31,010 nt of DNA, from positions 1 through 31,010 of IMG/VR virus record IMGVR_UViG_3300049732_000210, one strand, 5' to 3'. A model generated the notes under the pieces. That model was not told where the DNA came from. It searched no databases and worked only from the letters and a program-made list of their open reading frames with translations. This document shows, one piece after another, positions 11,089-21,526 of the stretch. A program made the translations under genes and the position numbers. Source of the DNA: a virus. Every line of letters starts with the position of its first letter. Position 1 is the stretch's first letter.

Positions 11089-12260
11089 CCACCAACCTGG
11101 CTGACCCGCAACCCGCCGCCCCCCCGGTGATCGGTGACACGTCCACGATCACCAGCCGGTCCCGGGTGGTCAGCGCCAGCACCTGGCCCGGCACCCGGGC
11201 ATTGACCTCCTCCCCCCTGGCGACCCGGGCTGAGTTGAACCTTGACGAGCAGCTCGGCCAACGCCAAGCCAGCTGGAGTTTCCAACTCGTCAACGGGGTC
11301 ACCGGTCAGGTACTCGGCCAACTGCACCCGGTGATCCAACCCGCCACGATCAGCCACGACACCATGCGGGTGATCAAACGGGACCTGCGGATCGGGCTGA
11401 CCGCGGCGGATGTGGCGGCGATCAACCCGATTACCGACCGGGTCCTGCCGTACATGCACGTCGCCGGCTACGCCTACCCGCTGGGCCGCTACCTGTTCAA
11501 CGACCCCACCGAACTGGTCAGCACCGGCGGCACCCAGGGCATGTACTCGTTGCTCGACGAAATGTTCATCATCGACCAGCAGATGGAAACCGGGTTCGCC
11601 TCCAGCAGCACCGTCGATCTGGCGGTGCGGGCGTTGCTGGACGGGTTGCCGCTGCAACTGGTGCTGATCGAAGCCACCCAGTACGCCGCGGTCGGGGGGT
11701 GGGCGGCCGGCACCACCCGCGGTCAGGTCCTCGCCGCCCTGGCCATCCAGGGTGACTACGAAACCCCGTGGATGGATAACAACGGGGACTTCCGAATGGT
11801 CCAAACCGTCGACCCGGACAAAGTTCCCGCGGCCTTGGATTTGGACACCGGTCGGCGGGTGCTGCGCTCGAGCATCAGCCAAACCAACGACCTGCTCAAC
11901 GCCCCCAACCGGTTCGTGATCATCGGCAATTCGGGGACGTCGGTGGACACCCCCATCGTCGGTGTTTACGACGTGCCCACCAACGCCCCCCACTCGATCG
12001 CCAACCGCGGGTTCGTCATCCCCAGGGTGGAGAATCTGCAGGTCGCCAACTCGGTGCAGGCCACCGCCATCGCCCGAGGGTGGGGGATCCGCCAAACCGT
12101 GTTCGAACGGGCCGACCTGGACACTGTGCCCGACCCCCGCCACGACGCCTACCAGGTGATCCACTGGTCGGGGCGCAACTGGTTGGAGCTGGCCTGGTCA
12201 ATGACCTGCGCCGAGGGTGCCACGATGCGGCACTCGCTGCGACGGGCGCTGGTCGCATGA
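11085..12260 (+). CDS. Minor tail protein (hub / Gp37-like)
   Basis: This 391-residue protein starts at a GTG overlapping the previous stop (GTGA). The layout resembles the siphovirus ReqiPepy6 Gp37-like family of tail-hub or tail-associated proteins. An N-terminal beta domain contains AELNLDEQLGQRQASWSFQL, then DTMRVIKRDLRIG, a conserved-looking turn PYMHVAGYAYPLGRYLF, and a helical region. Then come GDYETPWMDNNGDFRMV and SISQTNDLLNAPNRFVIIG, patterns seen in hub proteins. Its gene position, right after the largest minor tail protein, fits a baseplate or tail-tip component. No catalytic motif is visible. Confidence 0.65.
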   Translation: MTTNLADPQPAAPPVIGDTSTITSRSRVVSASTWPGTRALTSSPLATRAELNLDEQLGQRQASWSFQLVNGVTGQVLGQLHPVIQPATISHDTMRVIKRDLRIGLTAADVAAINPITDRVLPYMHVAGYAYPLGRYLFNDPTELVSTGGTQGMYSLLDEMFIIDQQMETGFASSSTVDLAVRALLDGLPLQLVLIEATQYAAVGGWAAGTTRGQVLAALAIQGDYETPWMDNNGDFRMVQTVDPDKVPAALDLDTGRRVLRSSISQTNDLLNAPNRFVIIGNSGTSVDTPIVGVYDVPTNAPHSIANRGFVIPRVENLQVANSVQATAIARGWGIRQTVFERADLDTVPDPRHDAYQVIHWSGRNWLELAWSMTCAEGATMRHSLRRALVA

Positions 12261-12988
12261 GTCAACCGCAGCAAACCGTCGAACCCACCGTCACCTCGGT
12301 GGCCGCCGCCGCCGCCCCGTTGGGGTTGGCGTGGCAGATGCGGGTCGGGACCGTGTTCGACGGGCTTGACCCGGCCGCGGTCAAAATCCAGTTGGACGGG
12401 GACCAGACCGGGATCACCGTCAACGCCACCTCCATGGTCGGGCAGTTGATCGGCGGTGAGCGGGTCTACGTCATCGAAGTCCCCCCGGCCGGCCAATACG
12501 TTGTCGGCAGGATGTTCGGCAACGAGCGGTGGCTGGACGCGGCGGTGGTCGACACCACCGGCACCCTGGCCACCACCAGCGCCGGCACCGAGCTGAACGT
12601 GTCCTACTTCGCCCTGACCGTCCCCGGCTGGCAGTCGGGAAAGGTTTACATGTGCGAGGCGCAGCTGAGCTTGAGTTTCAGCGTCGTCACCGACACGTTC
12701 GCGGTGCGGATCCGCCGCGACACCGCGCTGACCGGGGACCTGCTTGCGGAGGCGTTCATCAGCGACGCCGGCCTGTCCACCCCCAAACTGGAATGGCCGC
12801 TACGCCCAACCGCCACCGAACGCAACGTGAGACTGTTCCTGTCGGTGATCCGTGCCGCCGGGACCGGGACCTGCGCGGTGCTCGGCCCGAACCTGTCCGG
12901 TGGGGCGGTGGTGGCCCGGGTCTGGTCGGGGATCCGCACCGCCGACGCGTTGACAACCCGCCCCGGCGGGATTTGGCGGGTCACCTAA
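12257..12988 (+). CDS. Minor tail protein with N-terminal OB-like domain
   Basis: The ATG at 12257 overlaps the previous stop (ATGA), giving 243 residues; an in-frame ATG at 12080 is inside the preceding gene and was not used. The N-terminal 85 residues form a short beta domain (VKIQLDGDQTGITVNATSM, then GGERVYVIEVPPAGQYVVG). This resembles the small OB-like domain many phage tail proteins carry. After a linker the C-terminal half is another beta-rich module with RIRRDTALTGDLLAE. It ends the rightward tail block. Its stop overlaps by four bases the stop of the convergent SGNH hydrolase gene. Confidence 0.6.
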   Translation: MSQPQQTVEPTVTSVAAAAAPLGLAWQMRVGTVFDGLDPAAVKIQLDGDQTGITVNATSMVGQLIGGERVYVIEVPPAGQYVVGRMFGNERWLDAAVVDTTGTLATTSAGTELNVSYFALTVPGWQSGKVYMCEAQLSLSFSVVTDTFAVRIRRDTALTGDLLAEAFISDAGLSTPKLEWPLRPTATERNVRLFLSVIRAAGTGTCAVLGPNLSGGAVVARVWSGIRTADALTTRPGGIWRVT

Positions 12989-13776
12989 CAGGTCGGTTTC
13001 GGCGCCACCAGGCTCGGGGTCACCGCGGGCAGCACCGGCATGGGCGGTGATGGTTGAGGGCGGCGCAGCAGGGCCGGCAGGAACGCCCTAGCCAGCACAT
13101 CCGACCCGGCGGTGGTGGGATGCACCCCGTCGTAGGTCATGCTCACCGGGTCGAACACAGTCGCGGTGTCGACCAGCCTCACCCCCAACGCGGTGTGGTT
13201 GGTCACCAGCCACGCGTTGTACGCGTCGATCCCCGCCTGATCCACAACACCGTTGGTGGGCAGCACCGTTCCCACCACGATGACCAGGTTCGGATTCGCG
13301 CCGCGGGCGTTGGCCACGAGCTCGGTGAAGTCCGCCGCGATCGTCGCCAACGGGTGCGCGTGATTGACGTCGTTGACCCCGAGCAGCACCAGCATCACAC
13401 CCGGCTGCGCGCTAGTCACCTCCGCGGCGATGGTGAGCTTCGCGGTGGAGACGAACCCGGCCAGCGGGTCGACGCTGCCCCAGATCGCGTCATGATCCGG
13501 GTCGCAGCCCAGCTCACTGCCGTACTCCCCGCCGAGGTGCAGATCGGTGCGGGGTCCGACCATGTCCACCCGCATCACCGTGATGGCTTTGCGCCAGAGT
13601 TGGCAACGCCACGGGTCATCCCCGGTCTTGCCCTGGCTGATCGAATCCCCCACCACCATCACCCGCACCGCGGCGGGCAACGCGGCGGCGGTCACCGGGG
13701 TGGGTGCGGTGAGAACCGCGATGAGCAGGGCGGCGAAAAAATACCTGACCCAACGTGGGATAGTCATGGTGTCCAT
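12985..13776 (-). CDS. Secreted SGNH/GDSL-family hydrolase (probable esterase)
   Basis: The product is a 263-residue minus-strand hydrolase. The N-terminus is a signal peptide: Arg8 and Arg11, then a hydrophobic core at residues 12-24 and an Ala-rich cleavage region near 30-36. Family motifs are the nucleophile block VVGDSISQG (Ser45), the Asn block LLGVNDV (Asn135) and the terminal DGVHP (Asp216, His219). Gly85 or a nearby residue could serve as the oxyanion glycine. The C-terminus is proline-rich (PQPSPPMPVLPAV). SGNH enzymes cleave acyl esters on sugars, lipids or cell-wall polymers. The target here is unknown; deacylation of host surface glycan or of the glycans made by the adjacent cassette are both plausible. 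A GGAG lies four bases before the start. It is the only antisense gene in the late region. Confidence 0.85.
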   Translation of the reverse strand: MDTMTIPRWVRYFFAALLIAVLTAPTPVTAAALPAAVRVMVVGDSISQGKTGDDPWRCQLWRKAITVMRVDMVGPRTDLHLGGEYGSELGCDPDHDAIWGSVDPLAGFVSTAKLTIAAEVTSAQPGVMLVLLGVNDVNHAHPLATIAADFTELVANARGANPNLVIVVGTVLPTNGVVDQAGIDAYNAWLVTNHTALGVRLVDTATVFDPVSMTYDGVHPTTAGSDVLARAFLPALLRRPQPSPPMPVLPAVTPSLVAPKPTC

Positions 13777-13802: not shown

Positions 13803-14495
13803 ATGCCGGGCCAACACCCACCAGCGTTCGCGATCATCCTCACCCACAACCGCCCCGAACTGCTCCACCGCTGCGTCCAAGCAGTCGCCGCCCAAGTCGA
13901 CACGGTCATCGTCGTCGACAACGCGTCGGACCCGCCGGTCGTCCATGACGAACTCCGCCCGGCCGCGCTACCGGCTGCCCTAGGTACGATCACTGTTCCC
14001 GACCAGCCGCCCAACCTGAGCAACCTGTGGAACCGGGCTTTCGATCAGGCTGCTCATCTGGCCACCAATTGGGTTGGCGCCGACCGGTGGGATCTGGTGG
14101 TGCTCTGCGACGACGCGATCGTCCCCCCCGGCTGGGTGCGGCTAGTGGTGGACGGGATGCGCCAACACGGGGGCGCGGCGGCGTGCACCCTCCCCATCGG
14201 CGACCCCATGGTGAAGACGGAGCCGGACCGGGACATCATGCACCGCATGGTCGGTTGGGCGTTCGCCCTGCGCGGCGAGGCCCGCCTACGCGCGGATGAG
14301 CGGCTGCATTTCTGGTGGTGCGACACTCACCTCGATTGGTTAGCTCGAGCCGCTGGTGGGATGGTCGTTGTCCCCGGGCCCGCGGTGCCTAATGAGCGAC
14401 CTAACGATTTCCTTGTCAACAAGCCCGGGATGGGCGAACAGGCAGGGCGGGACGGGGAGACGTTCAGCCAGATCCACGGATGGCGGCCCTGGTGA
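13803..14495 (+). CDS. GT-A type glycosyltransferase (family 2-like)
   Basis: This 230-residue enzyme would transfer a sugar from a nucleotide donor to an unknown acceptor. The N-terminus has the Rossmann-like start FAIILTHNRPELLHRCVQAV and VIVVDNASD (residues about 9-43), typical of family 2. The metal-binding position reads LCDDAIVPPGW (Asp103-Asp104). A later segment HFWWCDTHLDWLARAAGG resembles the acceptor-binding region with a catalytic Asp. It is the first of the rightward sugar cassette, 26 bases from the divergent SGNH hydrolase start. The ribosome site is weak. No signal peptide or membrane helix is present, so it acts in the cytoplasm. Confidence 0.8.
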   Translation: MPGQHPPAFAIILTHNRPELLHRCVQAVAAQVDTVIVVDNASDPPVVHDELRPAALPAALGTITVPDQPPNLSNLWNRAFDQAAHLATNWVGADRWDLVVLCDDAIVPPGWVRLVVDGMRQHGGAAACTLPIGDPMVKTEPDRDIMHRMVGWAFALRGEARLRADERLHFWWCDTHLDWLARAAGGMVVVPGPAVPNERPNDFLVNKPGMGEQAGRDGETFSQIHGWRPW

Positions 14496-15490
14496 CCCGG
14501 CGGATCTTCGCGATCGCCACCGACACGGCCGGCTGCTACCTGTACCGGCTGTACTGGCCACTGACCAACCTCAATCCGGACGAGTTCCAGCTGCACTGGG
14601 GTGGACCGGCAGTTGATCGGCAGGCCGGTGACGTGGTGATCGGGCAGCGCCTCGCCGGGGACAACGCTGCGTGGACCCACCTCTGCGGCGACCCGACCAT
14701 CCTCGCCGTGTACGAGATCGACGACGACATCGTCGACGTGGACCCGGACAACACCGTCCCGTATCAGATCTTCCAACCTCACCGGGACGGGACGATCCGC
14801 AATATCGCCGCGGCGGATGTGGTGACCTGCTCCACCCCCAACCTGGCTGAGAAGATCGCCGCTCGGTGGAATCCGAACGTGGTGGTGCTCCCGAACTGCC
14901 TGCCCCGGGCGTGGTTGGACCGGCCGGAGCAGCGGCGCGGGGATGGGCTGCTTACCGTCGGTTGGGCGGGCAGCATGTTCCATCACCAGGACTGGATCGG
15001 CGGCACCGGGGTACGGCTCAACCAAGCGCAGGCGTACAACCCGCGGATCCGCTTCGCCGCCATCGGAGCCGACTATTTGAGCCCGCATGTGAGCGTGGAG
15101 AAGTTCACCGGGTGGAACAGCATGGACGCCTACCTCGCCGCGTTGGATTTCGACATCGGGTTGGCGCCGCTGGTGCGCACCGAGTTCAACCAGTCCAAGT
15201 CGTGGGCGAAGCTGCTCGAGTACGGTGCTCGGGGCATTCCCGCCGTCGCCACCGCCTGGGGGCAGTATCCGCAATGGTTCGACCTGCTCCCCGGTGACCC
15301 GCCTGGGGTGCTCGTTGATGATTGGGTGGGCGGGTTCGAAGAGCCGCCAGCGGTGCCCACGGCGCTTGGGGTATTGTGCGATGATGCGACCCGGGCCACA
15401 ATGGGCGCCGCCGCGAAGGCGCGCGCCCGGATGTTCACCATCGAAGCCAACGCGCAGCGGTGGGCTGAGGTTTACCGGCGGCAACCATGA
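14492..15490 (+). CDS. GT-B type glycosyltransferase (group 1-like)
   Basis: I chose the GTG at 14492, which overlaps the previous stop (GTGA) as do most joints in this cassette. An in-frame ATG at 14480 would add four residues. The product is 332 residues. The N-terminal half has AGCYLYRLYWP, then a donor-domain core YEIDDDIVDVDPDN and the switch STPNLAEKIA. The C-terminal domain holds VGWAGSMFHHQDW and the donor-binding region around NQSKSWAKLLEYGARGIP, matching group 1 glycosyltransferases. Residue-level similarity to the glycosyltransferase at 19653-20708 indicates the two are paralogues. The acceptor is unknown. Confidence 0.75.
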   Translation: MTRRIFAIATDTAGCYLYRLYWPLTNLNPDEFQLHWGGPAVDRQAGDVVIGQRLAGDNAAWTHLCGDPTILAVYEIDDDIVDVDPDNTVPYQIFQPHRDGTIRNIAAADVVTCSTPNLAEKIAARWNPNVVVLPNCLPRAWLDRPEQRRGDGLLTVGWAGSMFHHQDWIGGTGVRLNQAQAYNPRIRFAAIGADYLSPHVSVEKFTGWNSMDAYLAALDFDIGLAPLVRTEFNQSKSWAKLLEYGARGIPAVATAWGQYPQWFDLLPGDPPGVLVDDWVGGFEEPPAVPTALGVLCDDATRATMGAAAKARARMFTIEANAQRWAEVYRRQP

Positions 15491-16764
15491 AACGTGATTT
15501 CTGCGGGTCTTGTGGCGCCACCCTGCACAAGGTTCTCGACCTCGGCCTGGCGCCGTTGGCTGACGAGTTCCCCCACACACCCAACGCATCCGTCGACCGG
15601 TACCCGCTGCAACTCGCGGTCTGCCACGACACCCGCAACTGCGGCCTCGCCCAACTCACCGAGGTGGTTGACGACGAGTTGCTGTGGGGTGGGGATTACG
15701 CGTTCTACGCCGGCGCCGTGGCACCGGTGGTGGAGTACATGGCCCGCTACGCGAAGTGGTTGGACTCCAACTACGGGCTGCTGATGCGCAACAAGCTGGT
15801 GGTGGAGATCGGCTGCAATGACGGCACCCTCCTCGCCGCACTACGTGAGCTTGGCCACCTGAACAGCCTCGGCGTTGACCCGGCCGAAGGGCCAGCGCAG
15901 GCCGCTAACGACAGGGGCCTCCCCGTCCTCAACGCCAAGTTCGGGGTCGTCACCGCCGAGCAGATCATCGACGAGGACGAGCATGGCCGTAAGGCGGCGC
16001 TGATCGTGGCGAACAACGTTGCCGCCCACGTCGCCGACCTGGACGACTTCTTCACCGGCATCAAAACCCTGCTCGCCCCGTACGGGGTGGCGATCCTCGA
16101 GGTCCAGTACCTGCCCGACCTGCTGCTCGGCAACGATTTCACCCTGCTCTACCACGAGCACCGCTCCTACTTCAGCCTGATCACCCTGCGGGCGGTAGCC
16201 CGCCAGCGGGGCTTGGCGGTGCGCGACGCCTGGCTGACCACCCCCCAGGGTGGCAGTCTCCGAGTGGCTTTGACCCACCCGGAAACTCCCGGTCACCCCG
16301 CCCTGTCGGTTGGGACGATCCTGGCGCAAGAACGCGACTGGCTCACCTGGGACTCATTCCAGGGGTTGCAGGGCCGCGCCGACCGGCTGCTCAGCTCACT
16401 GCTCCAACTGGTTTTCGACGAGCACGCCGCGGGTAGACGGGTCGCCGGGTACGGGGCGTCAGCCAAAGCCACCACCCTCCTGTCGTGGACCGGGCTGGGC
16501 CGCATGTCCACCCACCCGCAACGGGGGGTGCATCCCGGCACCGCGCAGGGGTTGGCGTATGTGGTTGACACCAGCCCCTCCAAGATCGGCCGGTACATGC
16601 CGGGCACGTCCATCCCCGTGGTGGGCAGCGGCGAGTTGGACCCGGAAGTCACCCACCTGGTGATGATCTGGAACTACCTGGGGCACGTCATCCGCAAGGA
16701 AGCTGATTACCTCACCAAGGGTGGCCGGTTCATCGTCCCGTTCCCCAAACCGGTGCTGCTCTAA
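15487..16764 (+). CDS. Sugar C-methyltransferase (NDP-keto-sugar type)
   Basis: The ATG at 15487 overlaps the previous stop (ATGA) and gives 425 residues, normal for this family. Three parts are visible. The N-terminal zinc-binding domain has Cys6 and Cys9, then Cys46 and Cys52, with the LDLGLAPLADEF pattern. The SAM domain has motif I EIGCNDGTLL (107-116) and the ANNVAAHVADLDDF block. The C-terminal domain has GYGASAKATTLLS and a closing nucleotide-fold segment. The YHEHRSYFSL block is where the family has its catalytic His and Glu. This layout is that of TylC3/NovU-type enzymes, which add a carbon-linked methyl to an NDP-4-keto-6-deoxy sugar. The next gene is a GDP-mannose-dehydratase-like protein, which might supply or modify such a substrate. 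Confidence 0.88.
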   Translation: MKRDFCGSCGATLHKVLDLGLAPLADEFPHTPNASVDRYPLQLAVCHDTRNCGLAQLTEVVDDELLWGGDYAFYAGAVAPVVEYMARYAKWLDSNYGLLMRNKLVVEIGCNDGTLLAALRELGHLNSLGVDPAEGPAQAANDRGLPVLNAKFGVVTAEQIIDEDEHGRKAALIVANNVAAHVADLDDFFTGIKTLLAPYGVAILEVQYLPDLLLGNDFTLLYHEHRSYFSLITLRAVARQRGLAVRDAWLTTPQGGSLRVALTHPETPGHPALSVGTILAQERDWLTWDSFQGLQGRADRLLSSLLQLVFDEHAAGRRVAGYGASAKATTLLSWTGLGRMSTHPQRGVHPGTAQGLAYVVDTSPSKIGRYMPGTSIPVVGSGELDPEVTHLVMIWNYLGHVIRKEADYLTKGGRFIVPFPKPVLL

Positions 16765-17672
16765 TGGGCGGCAGCGCGTTGATCCTGGGTGTGACCGGGC
16801 AGGACGGGTCCTACCTGGCTGAGCATCTCACCGCATTGGGCTGGCGGGTGTGGGGGATGGTCCGCGGCCAGCCCGAGGCTCACCCCCGCCACGACTGGCT
16901 ACGTAGCCTCCTGCCCGATTTGCAACTCGTGGGTGGGGATCTGCTCGATGCCGGGTCGTTGCGGGAGGCGATCCGCGGCCAAGGCTTCGAGGTGATCTAC
17001 AACCTGGCGGCGGTGTCCAGCCCCGGGCAGGCGTGGCAACAGCCTGTTCTCACCGGTGAAGTAACTGGGCTGGGGGTCACCCGGCTGTTGGATGTGGTGC
17101 GTAATCTGCGCCCCTGGGTGCGGGTGGTGCAGGCTGGGTCGATCGCCACCCACGGCCCGTACGGGGCGGCGAAAACGTACGCCCGCGCGGTCTGTGAGGA
17201 CTACCGGCAGCGGGGCATGCTGGTCTCCACCGTCCTGTTCGGTGGGCACCACTCACCGCGCCGTTCACCGGCGTACTTCTCCCGGAAGGTCACCAAAGCG
17301 GTGGCGGAGATCGCCGCCGGGCGGCGGGACGATTTGTGGTTGGGGTCGTTGGTCCGATCGCAGGACTGGGGGTGGGCGGACAACTTCGTCACCGCCCTAC
17401 CAGAGATCGCCGCGATGGAACCCGGCGAGTACACGGTGTCTACCGGTGAGCCGCGCACCTGCCAGGAATGGGTTGAGGCGGCTTTTACTGCGGCGGATCT
17501 GGACTGGCGTGAGCACGTCCGGTTGGACAAGCGGGCCGGCAACGTCACCGACGTGCCCCTACTGAGCGCTGCCCCGGATGAGCGGCTGATCTGGCGACCC
17601 AGGCGGGACTTCACCGAACTCGTCTCGAGCATGGTCGAGGCGGACCTGACCCGGGTGGGGGTGCGGGCGTGA
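16764..17672 (+). CDS. NAD(P)-dependent sugar dehydratase/epimerase, GDP-mannose 4,6-dehydratase-like but altered
   Basis: This 302-residue short-chain dehydrogenase/reductase overlaps the previous stop by one base. The N-terminal nucleotide motif is GVTGQDGSYLAE (Gly9, Gly12, Gly15). The active-site Tyr133 and Lys137 lie in PYGAAKTYA. Strong matches to GDP-mannose 4,6-dehydratase are HHSPRR (162-167), the RKVTKAV helix and QDWGWADNFV (200-209). However, the protein is shorter than typical GMD. Where the family carries a Thr-Ser-Glu element and a loop of about 17 residues before the Tyr, this protein has only GSIATHG then PYG. The catalytic glutamate therefore appears to be missing. It may be an epimerase, a reductase or an inactive partner rather than a standard dehydratase. 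Confidence 0.8.
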   Translation: MGGSALILGVTGQDGSYLAEHLTALGWRVWGMVRGQPEAHPRHDWLRSLLPDLQLVGGDLLDAGSLREAIRGQGFEVIYNLAAVSSPGQAWQQPVLTGEVTGLGVTRLLDVVRNLRPWVRVVQAGSIATHGPYGAAKTYARAVCEDYRQRGMLVSTVLFGGHHSPRRSPAYFSRKVTKAVAEIAAGRRDDLWLGSLVRSQDWGWADNFVTALPEIAAMEPGEYTVSTGEPRTCQEWVEAAFTAADLDWREHVRLDKRAGNVTDVPLLSAAPDERLIWRPRRDFTELVSSMVEADLTRVGVRA

Positions 17673-18307
17673 CCGAGCAGCCACTGGTCAGCATCGTCAC
17701 GCCCACCATCCCCGACAGGTTGACGTTGCTGCGCCGGTGTTCCACCTCTGTCAAGGAGCTCGACTGGCCCAGAGTCCAGCACGTGATCGTGTCCGACCGG
17801 AACCGGCAAATCGCGGCTCAGCACGCCTACGAGACATGGCCGGGCGGATGCCGCCAACTTGTCATCGTGGAGATCAACGAGTCGTGGCGCAACCCCACCA
17901 GCCTGGCCAGTGTCGGCGCGGTCCCGTTCCAGGTCGGTTCGCTGCTCGCGCTTGGGGAGTTCGTCGGGTACTGCGGTGACGACGACGAGCTGCTACCCGA
18001 CCACATCAGCCGCCACGTCACGGCGATGCGTCAGGCTGAGGCGCACTTCTCCATCAGCGCGGTGGAGTTCCGCATCGGTGGTGACCCGTGGCGGGTCATC
18101 GGCCCCAGCTTCGACCACGGGAACTTGGACGCGATCGGGATCATGTGCCACAAGGACGCCCTCGCCGTAGCCACGTGGACGGCGAACGGGGAAGACGCCG
18201 CCGACTACCGCCTCGTCCGGGACTGGCTAGCCGCTGGGTTGCGCGGGGTGCTGGTTGACGGTGGGCCGACGGCGATCCACCACGACGGGTGGGCGGCTCG
18301 GCAATGA
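17669..18307 (+). CDS. GT-A type glycosyltransferase (family 2-like)
   Basis: This 212-residue protein has a GTG start overlapping the previous stop (GTGA). The N-terminus SIVTPTIPDRLTLLRRC is the classic family 2 opening, and VIVSDRNRQIAAQ follows the second strand. The metal site is GYCGDDDELLPDH with Asp104-Asp106. Near the end the sequence has NGEDAADYRLVRDWLAAG, resembling the ED catalytic segment of family 2. It is a soluble enzyme, probably adding one sugar in the cassette's glycan. The donor and acceptor cannot be read from sequence. It is short for the family but complete by its motifs. Confidence 0.8.
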   Translation: MTEQPLVSIVTPTIPDRLTLLRRCSTSVKELDWPRVQHVIVSDRNRQIAAQHAYETWPGGCRQLVIVEINESWRNPTSLASVGAVPFQVGSLLALGEFVGYCGDDDELLPDHISRHVTAMRQAEAHFSISAVEFRIGGDPWRVIGPSFDHGNLDAIGIMCHKDALAVATWTANGEDAADYRLVRDWLAAGLRGVLVDGGPTAIHHDGWAARQ

Positions 18308-18951
18308 CCGTCTGCGTGGTGATCACCCGGGATCGGGTCAGCTACACCCGGGCCTGCGTCGCCTCGCTCGAGCAGCACGGGTTGGACATCCACCTGGTTG
18401 ACCACGGGTCGACCTGGCCCAGCATGTTGGACTACCTCAACGAAACCCCCTACCCGGTGCACTACCTCGACGAACGTCCACCGCGGGCGTTGTGGGACTG
18501 GGACGGGTTGCGTGATGTGGTGGGTTCATTCCCCTACCTGGTGACCGACCCGGACGTGGTGATCGACCCGGACTGCCCCGCCGACTGGTTGCAGGTAGCC
18601 GCCGACGAACTGGCTCCCGGGGGTGTGGCGAAAGTCGGGCTGGGATTACGCGTCGATGACCTGCCCGACACGGCGCTCACCTTGGCGGTGCGGGAATGGG
18701 AGGCCCCGTTCTCGCTGGCCCTCACCGCGTCGGGTCGGGCGTACCGGGCCCCGGTGGATACCACCCTCGCGCTTCACCCGCCGCTGTACCTTCAGCCGAA
18801 GTTCAGGCTGGGCCCGGCGGCACGTCTCGCACCGCCGTATCTGATCCGGCATCTGCCCTGGTACGGGGATCTGGATCCGGATGAGACGGCGCACTACCGG
18901 GGGCGGGCGATCCCCGGCTCATCCCACTGGATCAACGGAGGCTGGCCGTGA
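18304..18951 (+). CDS. GT-A-like glycosyltransferase
   Basis: The ATG at 18304 overlaps the previous stop (ATGA); an in-frame GTG at 18289 was not preferred. The product is 215 residues. The opening strand MTVCVVITRDRVSYTRAC and the second LDIHLVDHGSTW fit a family 2-like GT-A fold. A candidate metal-binding stretch is LVTDPDVVIDPDCPADW (about 80-96), of the Asp-x-Asp type. The remainder (VKLGLRV-like region at 123-130, then REWEAPFSLA) is less typical, so the assignment is weaker than for the neighbouring genes. The conserved overlaps indicate it is co-translated with the other cassette genes. Confidence 0.7.
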   Translation: MTVCVVITRDRVSYTRACVASLEQHGLDIHLVDHGSTWPSMLDYLNETPYPVHYLDERPPRALWDWDGLRDVVGSFPYLVTDPDVVIDPDCPADWLQVAADELAPGGVAKVGLGLRVDDLPDTALTLAVREWEAPFSLALTASGRAYRAPVDTTLALHPPLYLQPKFRLGPAARLAPPYLIRHLPWYGDLDPDETAHYRGRAIPGSSHWINGGWP

Positions 18952-19619
18952 CCGTCTCGGTGATCATCGCGGCGCATCCGGCGCGAGCCCGTAACGGGAT
19001 GCTCGCCGAGGCCACCATGAGCGTGTGCAGCCAAACCCAACCACCCGACGCCTTGCACGTCATCATTGATCATGACGGGTTGGGCGCACCTGCCACCCGG
19101 CAACGCGCCCTCGACCATGTGGACACGGAGTGGGTGGCGTTCCTCGACAGTGACGACGTGTTCATGCCCCGTCATTTGGAGCTGCTCACCGCCCACGCCG
19201 TGAAAACCGGGGCCGACTACGTGTACTCCTGGTTCCGGATCATCCAACAATTCGGCAACGGCGCCCGCAAGGAGATCATGTGGACGCCGGAGGACGGGGA
19301 CGGGGTGTTCCCCCCCGGGCATTATTTGAACGAGTTCGACCCGAACGACCCGATCGAAACGACCATCACGGTCCTGGTGCGCACCGAGTTGGCGAAGCAG
19401 GTCGGGTTCCGACCGTTGGACCGGGGGCAGATCAACACGGGTGAGGACCGGGCGTTCACCCTTGACTGTTTGGCGGCGGGGGCGAAGATTGTGCACCTGC
19501 GCCGGTTCACCTGGTGGTGGCGGCACCATTGGTTGCCCGGTGGGGGGAAGGGCAACACCAGCGGTCACGCCAACCAAGGCGACGCGGAAGGATCCGCGGT
19601 CCGCGCGGGTGATGCCTGA
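18948..19619 (+). CDS. GT-A type glycosyltransferase (family 2)
   Basis: This 223-residue enzyme has a GTG start overlapping the previous stop (GTGA). The first strand TVSVIIAAHPARARNGML and a following helix with EATMSVCSQTQPP are standard for family 2. The metal motif is VAFLDSDDVFMPRHLE (Asp67 to Asp70). GEDRAFTLDCLAAGAKIVHL in the second half matches the ED catalytic region. A basic Trp-rich tail (WWWRHHW) follows. It lacks a membrane segment. It precedes the disrupted GT-B gene and is the last intact glycosyltransferase of the cassette. Confidence 0.85.
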   Translation: MTVSVIIAAHPARARNGMLAEATMSVCSQTQPPDALHVIIDHDGLGAPATRQRALDHVDTEWVAFLDSDDVFMPRHLELLTAHAVKTGADYVYSWFRIIQQFGNGARKEIMWTPEDGDGVFPPGHYLNEFDPNDPIETTITVLVRTELAKQVGFRPLDRGQINTGEDRAFTLDCLAAGAKIVHLRRFTWWWRHHWLPGGGKGNTSGHANQGDAEGSAVRAGDA

Positions 19620-19621
19620 TC

Positions 19622-19666
19622 ATGGTCATCTACGTTTACCCCGCGGACGCATTTGGCTGTGGTTGA
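19622..19666 (+). pseudogene. Displaced 5' end of the last glycosyltransferase gene, in another frame
   Basis: An ATG at 19622, two bases after the previous stop, encodes MVIYVYPADAFGCG and then a stop at 19664-19666. This peptide is what I would expect at the N-terminus of the following glycosyltransferase. The rest of that gene is read in the +1-shifted frame from about 19665. See the finding on the 7-base insertion. Confidence 0.6.
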
Positions 19667-20708
19667 GGGCCACTACAGGCTGATTTGGCCGGGGCTGGTC
19701 CTCGCCTCCCAAGGCCACGATGTGCGGGTCATCGCCCCCGGCTCCCGGGAAGGCATCGCTGGGGACATCAACAAGCAGACCGGTCAGATTGTTGACCTGC
19801 GGGTGCCCCCTGATGCGGACGCGATCGTGGTGCAGCGGATCACTCTGCGGCACATGGCCGACGGGTTAGCTTTGCTGCGGGAGCGGCAGCCGCATATCGC
19901 GGTGATCGTCGACATGGATGATGACCTGCGCACGATCAATCCGAACAACCCGGCGTTCCGGGCGTTGCACACCAAGTACGGGCATGCGGTGCACACCGGT
20001 GAGAACGCGATGCGGGCCTGTTTGGGTGCCACCCTGGTCACCGTGTCCACCCCCGCCCTACTGAAGGTGTACGCCCCGCACGGGCGGGGGGTGGTCATGT
20101 ACAACCGGGTCCCCAAGGGGTACCTGGACGTGCCGCACGTGGACTCCACGGTCATGTCCTGGCCAGGGTCGATCCACTCCCACCCGGATGACCTGCATCA
20201 GGTTGGCCCCGCCGTGGCGCGTCTGATCCAAGCCGGGCACCAGTATGTGGCCACCGGGTCACCGGTGGGGATCAAAGACGCCCTCGCCCTGCCGGAGCAT
20301 CCCGACAGTTGCGGGGATGTGGACTTCGACAAGTGGCCCTGGGCCGTAGCGAGGATCGGGGTGGGGTTGGCCCCGTTGGCGGACACCGTGTTCAACGCCG
20401 CCAAGTCCTGGTTGAAACCGTTGGAGCTATCCGCGATGGGGGTGCCGTGGGTCGCCTCACCTAGGGCGGAGTATGTGCGGCTGCACCGGGACCACAAGGT
20501 GGGGTTGTTGGCGAAAGACCGGGGTGCCTGGTTCCAACGGCTACGCGCCCTGGTCACCGACGAAGCGTTGCGACTCGAACAGTCGCAGGCCGGCCGCGCG
20601 GCGGCGGCGGCGAACACGGTGGAGGAACACGCGTGGCGGTGGTTGGAAGCTTGGCAGGGCGCGGTGATGATAGCCAGGCGGGGAGCGCCCGCGTTGCGGC
20701 TACGATGA
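19653..20708 (+). CDS. GT-B type glycosyltransferase, 5' end disrupted
   Basis: The frame from TTG 19653 encodes 351 residues and ends at 20708. The start is a default; GTG 19659 is equally possible, and the true N-terminus is probably encoded at 19622 in another frame. Recognisable parts are HYRLIWPGLVL, VDMDDDLRTINPNN, TVSTPALLKVY, and the donor domain around FNAAKSWLKPLELSAMGVP. These match the paralogue at 14492-15490 block by block. It would transfer sugar in the cytoplasm to the same kind of acceptor as its paralogue. The C-terminal end (about residue 300 onward) is Ala/Arg-rich helix. If the disruption is real, the enzyme would lack its first beta strand and may be impaired. Confidence 0.7.
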   Translation: MAVVEGHYRLIWPGLVLASQGHDVRVIAPGSREGIAGDINKQTGQIVDLRVPPDADAIVVQRITLRHMADGLALLRERQPHIAVIVDMDDDLRTINPNNPAFRALHTKYGHAVHTGENAMRACLGATLVTVSTPALLKVYAPHGRGVVMYNRVPKGYLDVPHVDSTVMSWPGSIHSHPDDLHQVGPAVARLIQAGHQYVATGSPVGIKDALALPEHPDSCGDVDFDKWPWAVARIGVGLAPLADTVFNAAKSWLKPLELSAMGVPWVASPRAEYVRLHRDHKVGLLAKDRGAWFQRLRALVTDEALRLEQSQAGRAAAAANTVEEHAWRWLEAWQGAVMIARRGAPALRLR

Positions 20709-20740: not shown

Positions 20741-21526
20741 ATGGTCACCGCTGACCATCCAGACATTCCCTTCGTCGAGGCCAAAACCGCTGACGGTGGT
20801 CCCGCCTACACCCGCGGCCGCCCGGACGGGCCGCCGATCTGGGTAGTGATCCACGACATGGAGTTCCCGGAACGCCTCGACGCGGCTGAGTGGACCGCCC
20901 ACTACTTCAGCGGCCCAGCCAGCGCCGCTGGTCGTTCCGTGAGTTCGCACTACACCGCTGACGCCGACTCGATCGTCCAATGTGTCCGTCTCGCCGATAC
21001 CGCTTGGACGGTGGGTAATCGGCCCGGCAACTACCGGGGGATCAACTGGGAGCTGGCCGGCTACGCCAGCCAAACCCGCCAGCAATGGTTGGATACGTTC
21101 AGCTTGGCCATGCTCACCCGCATCGCGGAGATCATTCGCCGGGACATGGGCACCTACTCGATCCCCGCCCGGACGTTAAGCGACGCGCAGGTCAAAGCAT
21201 TCACATCGGGGATAACCTCCCACTGGCAGCTTGGGCGGGTCTTCGGGGGTACCGACCACACCGACCCGGGTCCCAATTTCCCGTGGGACGTTCTGCTCGA
21301 CCTGTTGACAGGAGACGATGACGTGGCGATCAGCGAGAACGACTTCAACGCCCTGATCTGGCGGGTGAAAGCAATCCTGGACAACACGGCCACCGTCACG
21401 GGTGGGCCAACCAAGGGTGAGAAGAATCAACTCCACGACGCAGTTGCCGACGAGAAGGTCCGGGTCATCGTCCGCGAGGAACTGGACAAGACCGAAGGCA
21501 AGACCAAGCTCGGCCTCGCCCCGTGA
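20741..21526 (+). CDS. Endolysin: N-acetylmuramoyl-L-alanine amidase (Amidase_2/PGRP type)
   Basis: This 261-residue protein has an ATG start behind GAGGAG. It cuts the amide bond between N-acetylmuramic acid and the stem peptide during host lysis. The catalytic fold covers residues about 1-185: IWVVIHDME with His38 as probable zinc ligand, VSSHYTAD at 68-74, INWELAGYA with Glu104, then ITSHWQLG (His161) and HTDPGPNFPW with Asp175. By comparison with AmpD-type amidases the likely zinc ligands are His38, His161 and Asp175. Residues about 186-261 are charged and helical, with no recognised cell-wall binding domain. There is no signal peptide, so it needs a holin; one lies directly downstream with a GTGA overlap. 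Confidence 0.9.
   Translation: MVTADHPDIPFVEAKTADGGPAYTRGRPDGPPIWVVIHDMEFPERLDAAEWTAHYFSGPASAAGRSVSSHYTADADSIVQCVRLADTAWTVGNRPGNYRGINWELAGYASQTRQQWLDTFSLAMLTRIAEIIRRDMGTYSIPARTLSDAQVKAFTSGITSHWQLGRVFGGTDHTDPGPNFPWDVLLDLLTGDDDVAISENDFNALIWRVKAILDNTATVTGGPTKGEKNQLHDAVADEKVRVIVREELDKTEGKTKLGLAP

Follow-up and report, generated by a model that had tools for sequence, protein, structure and literature searches.

Glycosylation of phage virions is already known. Freeman et al. 2023 is cited for glycans on the capsid and tail tube of the mycobacteriophages Che8, Corndog and Myrna. The locus described here shares with these systems glycosyltransferases encoded by an actinophage; unlike them, its operon joins six glycosyltransferases with a sugar 3-C-methyltransferase and a nucleotide-sugar SDR, and four of its glycosyltransferases (GT1, GT5, GT7 and GTB8, listed below) gave no match in Mycobacterium phages at E 1e-5. 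Homologues of GT1, GT7 and GTB8 (29-42% identity) occur in the Streptomyces phages Zuko and KimJongPhill and in the Arthrobacter phage Mimi group; in Zuko, two glycosyltransferases flank a SAM methyltransferase. These phages, however, gave no C-methyltransferase match, none of them appears among the GMD matches listed, and in the stretches read their sugar clusters lie among non-structural genes. A chemical parallel comes from the virenose route of Coxiella, proposed in silico to run from a GDP-mannose-derived 4-keto sugar through 3-C-methylation to a 4-ketoreductase (PMC3539893); its logic, a GMD paired with a TylC-like methyltransferase, is that proposed for the present cassette, but it belongs to a bacterial LPS and uses an ordinary GMD (PMC3539893). 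Neither cultured phages nor the literature searched offered another late cassette in which a sugar 3-C-methyltransferase accompanies a dehydratase or non-dehydratase that can be exchanged, and that literature yielded no report of C-methyl-branched sugars on phage particles.

The window analysed here is a whole IMG/VR record, a linear fragment of 31,010 bases from an uncultivated siphovirus with actinobacterial-type virion genes. The major capsid gene (PHROG 777) opens the window, followed by head-tail, tape measure and tail genes, the sugar cassette and an amidase endolysin. The nearest capsid relatives are found in Microbacterium phages, at ~32%, with more matches in Mycobacterium and Gordonia phages. 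The genes of the cassette and its immediate neighbours are as follows.

12080..12988, + strand: last tail-region gene 5' of the cassette (context); homologues adjoin tail genes in seven loci, and the preceding gene has a PHROG tail match
12985..13776, - strand: secreted SGNH/GDSL hydrolase (context); PF13472 E 1.1e-15, acetyl esterase 5b5s E 5.8e-14
13803..14495, + strand: GT1, short GT-A glycosyltransferase (GT2 family), core cassette gene; PF00535 E 6.7e-08
14492..15490, + strand: GTB2, GT-B-like glycosyltransferase; PHROG 7162 E 2.5e-39, weak GT-B Pfam matches
15487..16764, + strand: CMT3, TylC3/TcaB9-type sugar 3-C-methyltransferase, N domain zinc-binding; PF08484 E 5e-30, PF08421, PF13489; 4rv9 E 8e-55
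16764..17672, + strand: GMD4, GDP-mannose 4,6-dehydratase homologue lacking the catalytic Glu; PF16363 E 5e-52
17669..18307, + strand: GT5, GT-A glycosyltransferase with a GDDDE motif; PF00535 E 3.7e-05
18304..18951, + strand: GT6, GT-A fold glycosyltransferase; AlphaFold model, invariant T86-D87-x-D89 (TDxD)
18948..19619, + strand: GT7, GT-A glycosyltransferase with an FLDSDD motif, core cassette gene; PF00535 E 1.4e-11, PHROG 14775 E 9.8e-36
19622..20708 (long ORF 19653-20708), + strand: GTB8, GT-B-like glycosyltransferase, frame-broken; PHROG 7162 E 1.4e-26, weak GT-B Pfam matches
20741..21526, + strand: endolysin, N-acetylmuramoyl-L-alanine amidase (context); PF01510 E 2.3e-15, PHROG 12609 E 2.9e-28

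An earlier, sequence-only reading had described an eight-gene block between tail and lysis genes, and the eight ORFs were found where it placed them (13803-20708, + strand), with tail genes ending at 12988 on the 5' side and the amidase starting at 20741 on the 3' side. The SGNH/GDSL hydrolase gene (12985-13776, -) separates the tail genes from GT1. Among the fetched loci this insertion occurs in the window contig only; the nearest solved relatives of the protein are acetyl esterases, and it matched nothing in any fetched viral locus or in cultured phages. Likelier starts for two of the glycosyltransferases are a GTG at 14492 for GTB2, which overlaps the GT1 stop as GTGA, and an ATG at 18304 for GT6, which overlaps the GT5 stop as ATGA, in place of the first-stage starts at 14480 and 18289. 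With these starts, successive genes among the first seven overlap by 4, 4, 1, 4, 4 and 4 bases, in keeping with the 1-4 base overlaps described earlier. Promoter and terminator scans returned nothing above chance.

The earlier count of four GT-A-like and two GT-B-like glycosyltransferases also held, on Pfam or PHROG matches for five of the proteins and on predicted fold for GT6. GT1, GT5 and GT7 were assigned to the GT-2 type by PF00535 matches above cut-off. GT1 has 45 viral relatives, with an invariant DD motif at residues 103-104. GT5 had no match in cultured phages; in the majority of cassettes that combine CMT3-GMD4 with GT1, it adjoins GMD4. GT6 matched no Pfam or PHROG family; its AlphaFold model, built from seven relatives (pLDDT 83), matched in the PDB almost only GT-A glycosyltransferases and related nucleotidyltransferases, making GT6 a GT-A protein by predicted fold. 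A membrane-like segment was found in none of the cassette proteins (maximum mean hydropathy <1.6), which fits action on a cytoplasmic phage protein.

The last gene of the cassette, GTB8, does not begin at the TTG at 19653. Its N-terminus, MVIYVYPADAFGCG, begins instead at an ATG at 19622 and lies in a different frame from the rest of the protein, with the break near residue 14. Judged by its reading frames, GTB8 is broken in the window record, by a sequence error or a lesion, and the operon may thus be partly inactive in this record. Programmed frameshifting was considered and rejected, as no obvious slippery site was seen by eye and ~40 GTB8 homologues are continuous in one frame.

Enzymes of the TylC3/TcaB9 type act on 4-keto sugar nucleotides, adding a methyl group at C3. 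CMT3 combines PF08421, PF13489 and PF08484 in one chain, all above cut-off, and its best solved relatives, the D-mycarose 3-C-methyltransferase (4rv9) and TcaB9 (3ndi), align with it end to end and share the same three domains and the Y-x-E-H motif. In an alignment to 4rv9, the zinc cysteines C6, C9, C46 and C52 and the catalytic Y222-H-E-H225 are invariant between CMT3 and its relative on viral contig L087. These complete domains and conserved motifs agree with the earlier assignment of a sugar C-methyltransferase, and hence with a predicted C-methyl-branched sugar. Unlike the TylC3/TcaB9-type enzymes, CMT3 falls within a separate, all-viral clade of 47 members (support 100 in a tree of 156 sequences), with identities of up to 53% to viral relatives and up to 38% to cellular ones. 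A scan of viral data with the single CMT3 protein gave no match; with a two-row CMT3 alignment as the query, more than 100 viral relatives were recovered, so the null of the first scan reflects a limit of sensitivity.

GMD4 resembles the GDP-mannose 4,6-dehydratase 1RPN in fold and differs from it at the active site. The signature of these enzymes is [ST]SE..Yx3K, in which the single Glu is the catalytic acid (PMC8987622). Aligned to 1RPN over its full length, GMD4 reads GSIATHG-PYGAAK at this position, with no Glu and with Y133xxxK137 kept; 17 residues of the loop after the Glu position are absent, and RDWG is replaced by QDWG. The GMD4 model nevertheless superposes on 1RPN with a TM of 0.92 and retains both GxxGxxG and YxxxK. 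Of the earlier description as a GDP-mannose-dehydratase-like protein, the likeness therefore stands in fold, PF16363 and YxxxK, but the residue that defines a dehydratase is missing. Since the catalytic Glu and the 17-residue loop are both gone, GMD4 is probably not a dehydratase, and we predict a C4 oxidoreductase, acting as a 4-ketoreductase or an epimerase. The motif is intact in the GMD slot of most phage cassettes and in 36 of the 37 cellular homologues checked. Nine Glu-less phage enzymes form one clade (97/91). The enzyme of contig L125 keeps an Asp (SSADMYG) and lies outside this set; given this Asp and the single clade, the idea of two independent Glu losses was dropped. Each of the Glu-less contigs searched holds a single gene of the NAD-epimerase family, with no second such enzyme found on these possibly incomplete contigs.

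Scans of IMG/VR with CMT3, GT1 and GTB8 as queries retrieved contigs from phages that carry these genes in a matching context. Three or more of the eight cassette families occur together on 59 distinct viral contigs, and recognisable tail genes lie within 3 kb upstream in 27 of the 56 cassette contigs with upstream room. Contig L087 keeps the order GT1-GTB2-CMT3-GMD4-GT5-GT6 behind its tail genes, although identity to the window in the cassette genes they share is just 36-57%, and a GMD4 homologue lies within 300 bases of the CMT3 relative in 30 of 49 contigs with downstream room, some of them near-duplicates. On contigs L124 and L129, a CMT3-GT7-GT7 run directly precedes a capsid gene. The placement of a sugar cassette in a phage late region, flanked in the window by tail genes and an endolysin, was thus found again beside the tail genes of other phages. 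The cassette glycosyltransferases, meanwhile, were found in none of 80 cellular C-methyltransferase loci, and GT1 in none of 396 sampled Actinomycetota genomes, in a search that detected no positive control genome. By these comparisons of gene content the cassette is phage-owned, and the view that it is a host glycan operon taken up as a unit and lacking phage relatives is contradicted by the many phage relatives and the 80 cellular loci.

Two further observations concern the spread of these genes. GT7 relatives (~43-48%) are also located well away from the tail end: in capsid-related phages (contigs L007, L014, L020, L037 and others), they lie 7-9 kb 5' of the capsid gene. The cassette relative on contig L082 has a very low third-position GC (~0.3), so the phages that carry cassette genes differ greatly in base composition.

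The GMD slot was compared directly in contigs L105 and L112, which are collinear over ~18 kb at mostly 71-76% DNA identity and whose CMT3 sequences are sisters. The motif is intact in L105 (GMD gene at 11197-12159), whereas L112 (11209-12090) carries a Glu-less enzyme. The two GMD4 homologues are only 44% identical, against 67-82% for the other shared cassette genes, and the DNA alignment breaks at this gene. Read from these alignments, a single gene has been replaced at the GMD slot within one cassette, a swap between a putative dehydratase allele and a putative non-dehydratase one. It would seem from this replacement that one methyltransferase can operate with either type of partner; the swap probably changes the sugar. 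The centre of the cassette varies more widely: between GT1 and GT7, other cassettes carry an SDR, a second methyltransferase, an RmlC-type epimerase, an RmlD-like protein or an FAD oxidoreductase. An RmlC-type dTDP-sugar 3,5-epimerase accompanies a Glu-less GMD on L113 (8512-9039), and a methyltransferase and an FAD-dependent oxidoreductase occupy the GMD slot on L108 (11213-13549, also with an RmlD-like protein) and L110 (11164-12740). On L079 (7887-8666) and in six relatives, a gene between an SDR and GT7 has a VYGGYE-type motif at its start and no Pfam match, and possibly encodes another glycosyltransferase.

We favour, at a probability of roughly 55%, a modular phage late operon whose enzymes convert host GDP-mannose into a 3-C-methyl hexose and link this sugar to a virion protein. 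No sugar nucleotidyltransferase (NTP_transferase) was found in 24 cassette contigs, which may be incomplete, and we infer from this that the GDP-mannose would be supplied by the host. The 4-keto form could come from a host dehydratase, a strong GMD match being present in 157 of the 396 Actinomycetota genomes, or from C4 oxidation by GMD4 itself. CMT3 would methylate this predicted substrate at C3, GMD4 would set, reduce or epimerise C4, and the six soluble glycosyltransferases, expressed late, would build a short glycan with the 3-C-methyl sugar on a tail or capsid protein. The siting of the cassette in the late virion region, the lack of membrane segments and the mycobacteriophage precedent lead us to infer a virion protein as the probable target. 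Exchange of the dehydratase and Glu-less alleles would then decide between a 6-deoxy and a 6-hydroxy sugar, or between C4 configurations, so that the virion surface varies. A bolder version, which we hold only tentatively and think more doubtful than not, gives the GMD4 phage clade a new activity: with dehydration lost, it would only oxidise and re-reduce C4 of GDP-mannose, CMT3 would methylate C3 to yield a 6-hydroxy 3-C-methyl hexose, and populations would switch their virion sugar by swapping with true dehydratases.

Other targets were weighed against the virion. According to a cited paper, temperate phages modify the serotype of their hosts by glycosyltransferases, and the secreted SGNH hydrolase that adjoins the cassette in the window contig would suit a role at the host surface, in receptor masking or superinfection exclusion. 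We consider it unlikely that the cassette alters a host glycan in this way, because it includes no flippase, lipid-carrier transferase or membrane segment, because the SGNH gene is not common to other cassettes, and because it is placed in the late virion-lysis block, when a change of host surface gains little. Phage glycosyltransferases can also act on modified DNA, for which Pyle 2024 is cited, and several soluble enzymes of differing types could decorate hypermodified bases. This is highly improbable here: the cassette is located among tail and capsid genes, not replication genes, the thymidylate-synthase family (PF00303) occurs in only one of 30 cassette contigs, which are partial, and Tet_JBP (PF12851) gave no matches, a weak point since no positive control was detected.

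Two further alternatives concern the enzymes and their origin rather than the target. GMD4 could still be a GDP-mannose 4,6-dehydratase with another residue in place of the Glu, the product being an ordinary 6-deoxy-3-C-methyl sugar. In favour are the intact fold and nucleotide-binding core, the Glu that L087 carries one position off (GSIAEFG), and the CMT3 tree, in which sequences from Glu-containing and Glu-less cassettes intermix, as L105 and L112 illustrate. We rate it as quite unlikely, since the window, L104 and L112 have neither Glu nor Asp in the motif, the whole subgroup lacks the loop and reads QDWG, and the open frames of the listed cellular homologues are 322 aa or longer, except in pieces at contig ends. 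Because actinomycete deoxysugar pathways typically include enzymes of the CMT3 family, the cassette might also be a glycan or antibiotic-sugar operon that was recently taken from a host and has no function for the phage. The chance of this is very slight: gene order is conserved in phages despite their divergent proteins, the GC content of the cassette resembles that of its flanks, and a host-operon origin was rejected on the all-viral CMT3 clade together with the searches of cellular loci and genomes.

If the favoured reading of a virion-directed operon holds, the locus represents a sugar cassette that is widespread and exchangeable among uncultivated phages, and whose central sugar-donor enzymes vary from relative to relative in a manner comparable to bacterial O-antigen loci. 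The L105 and L112 pair offers a clean test of a one-gene change in the sugar of a phage particle, and the Glu-less enzyme would exemplify the natural conversion of a dehydratase into a different enzyme.
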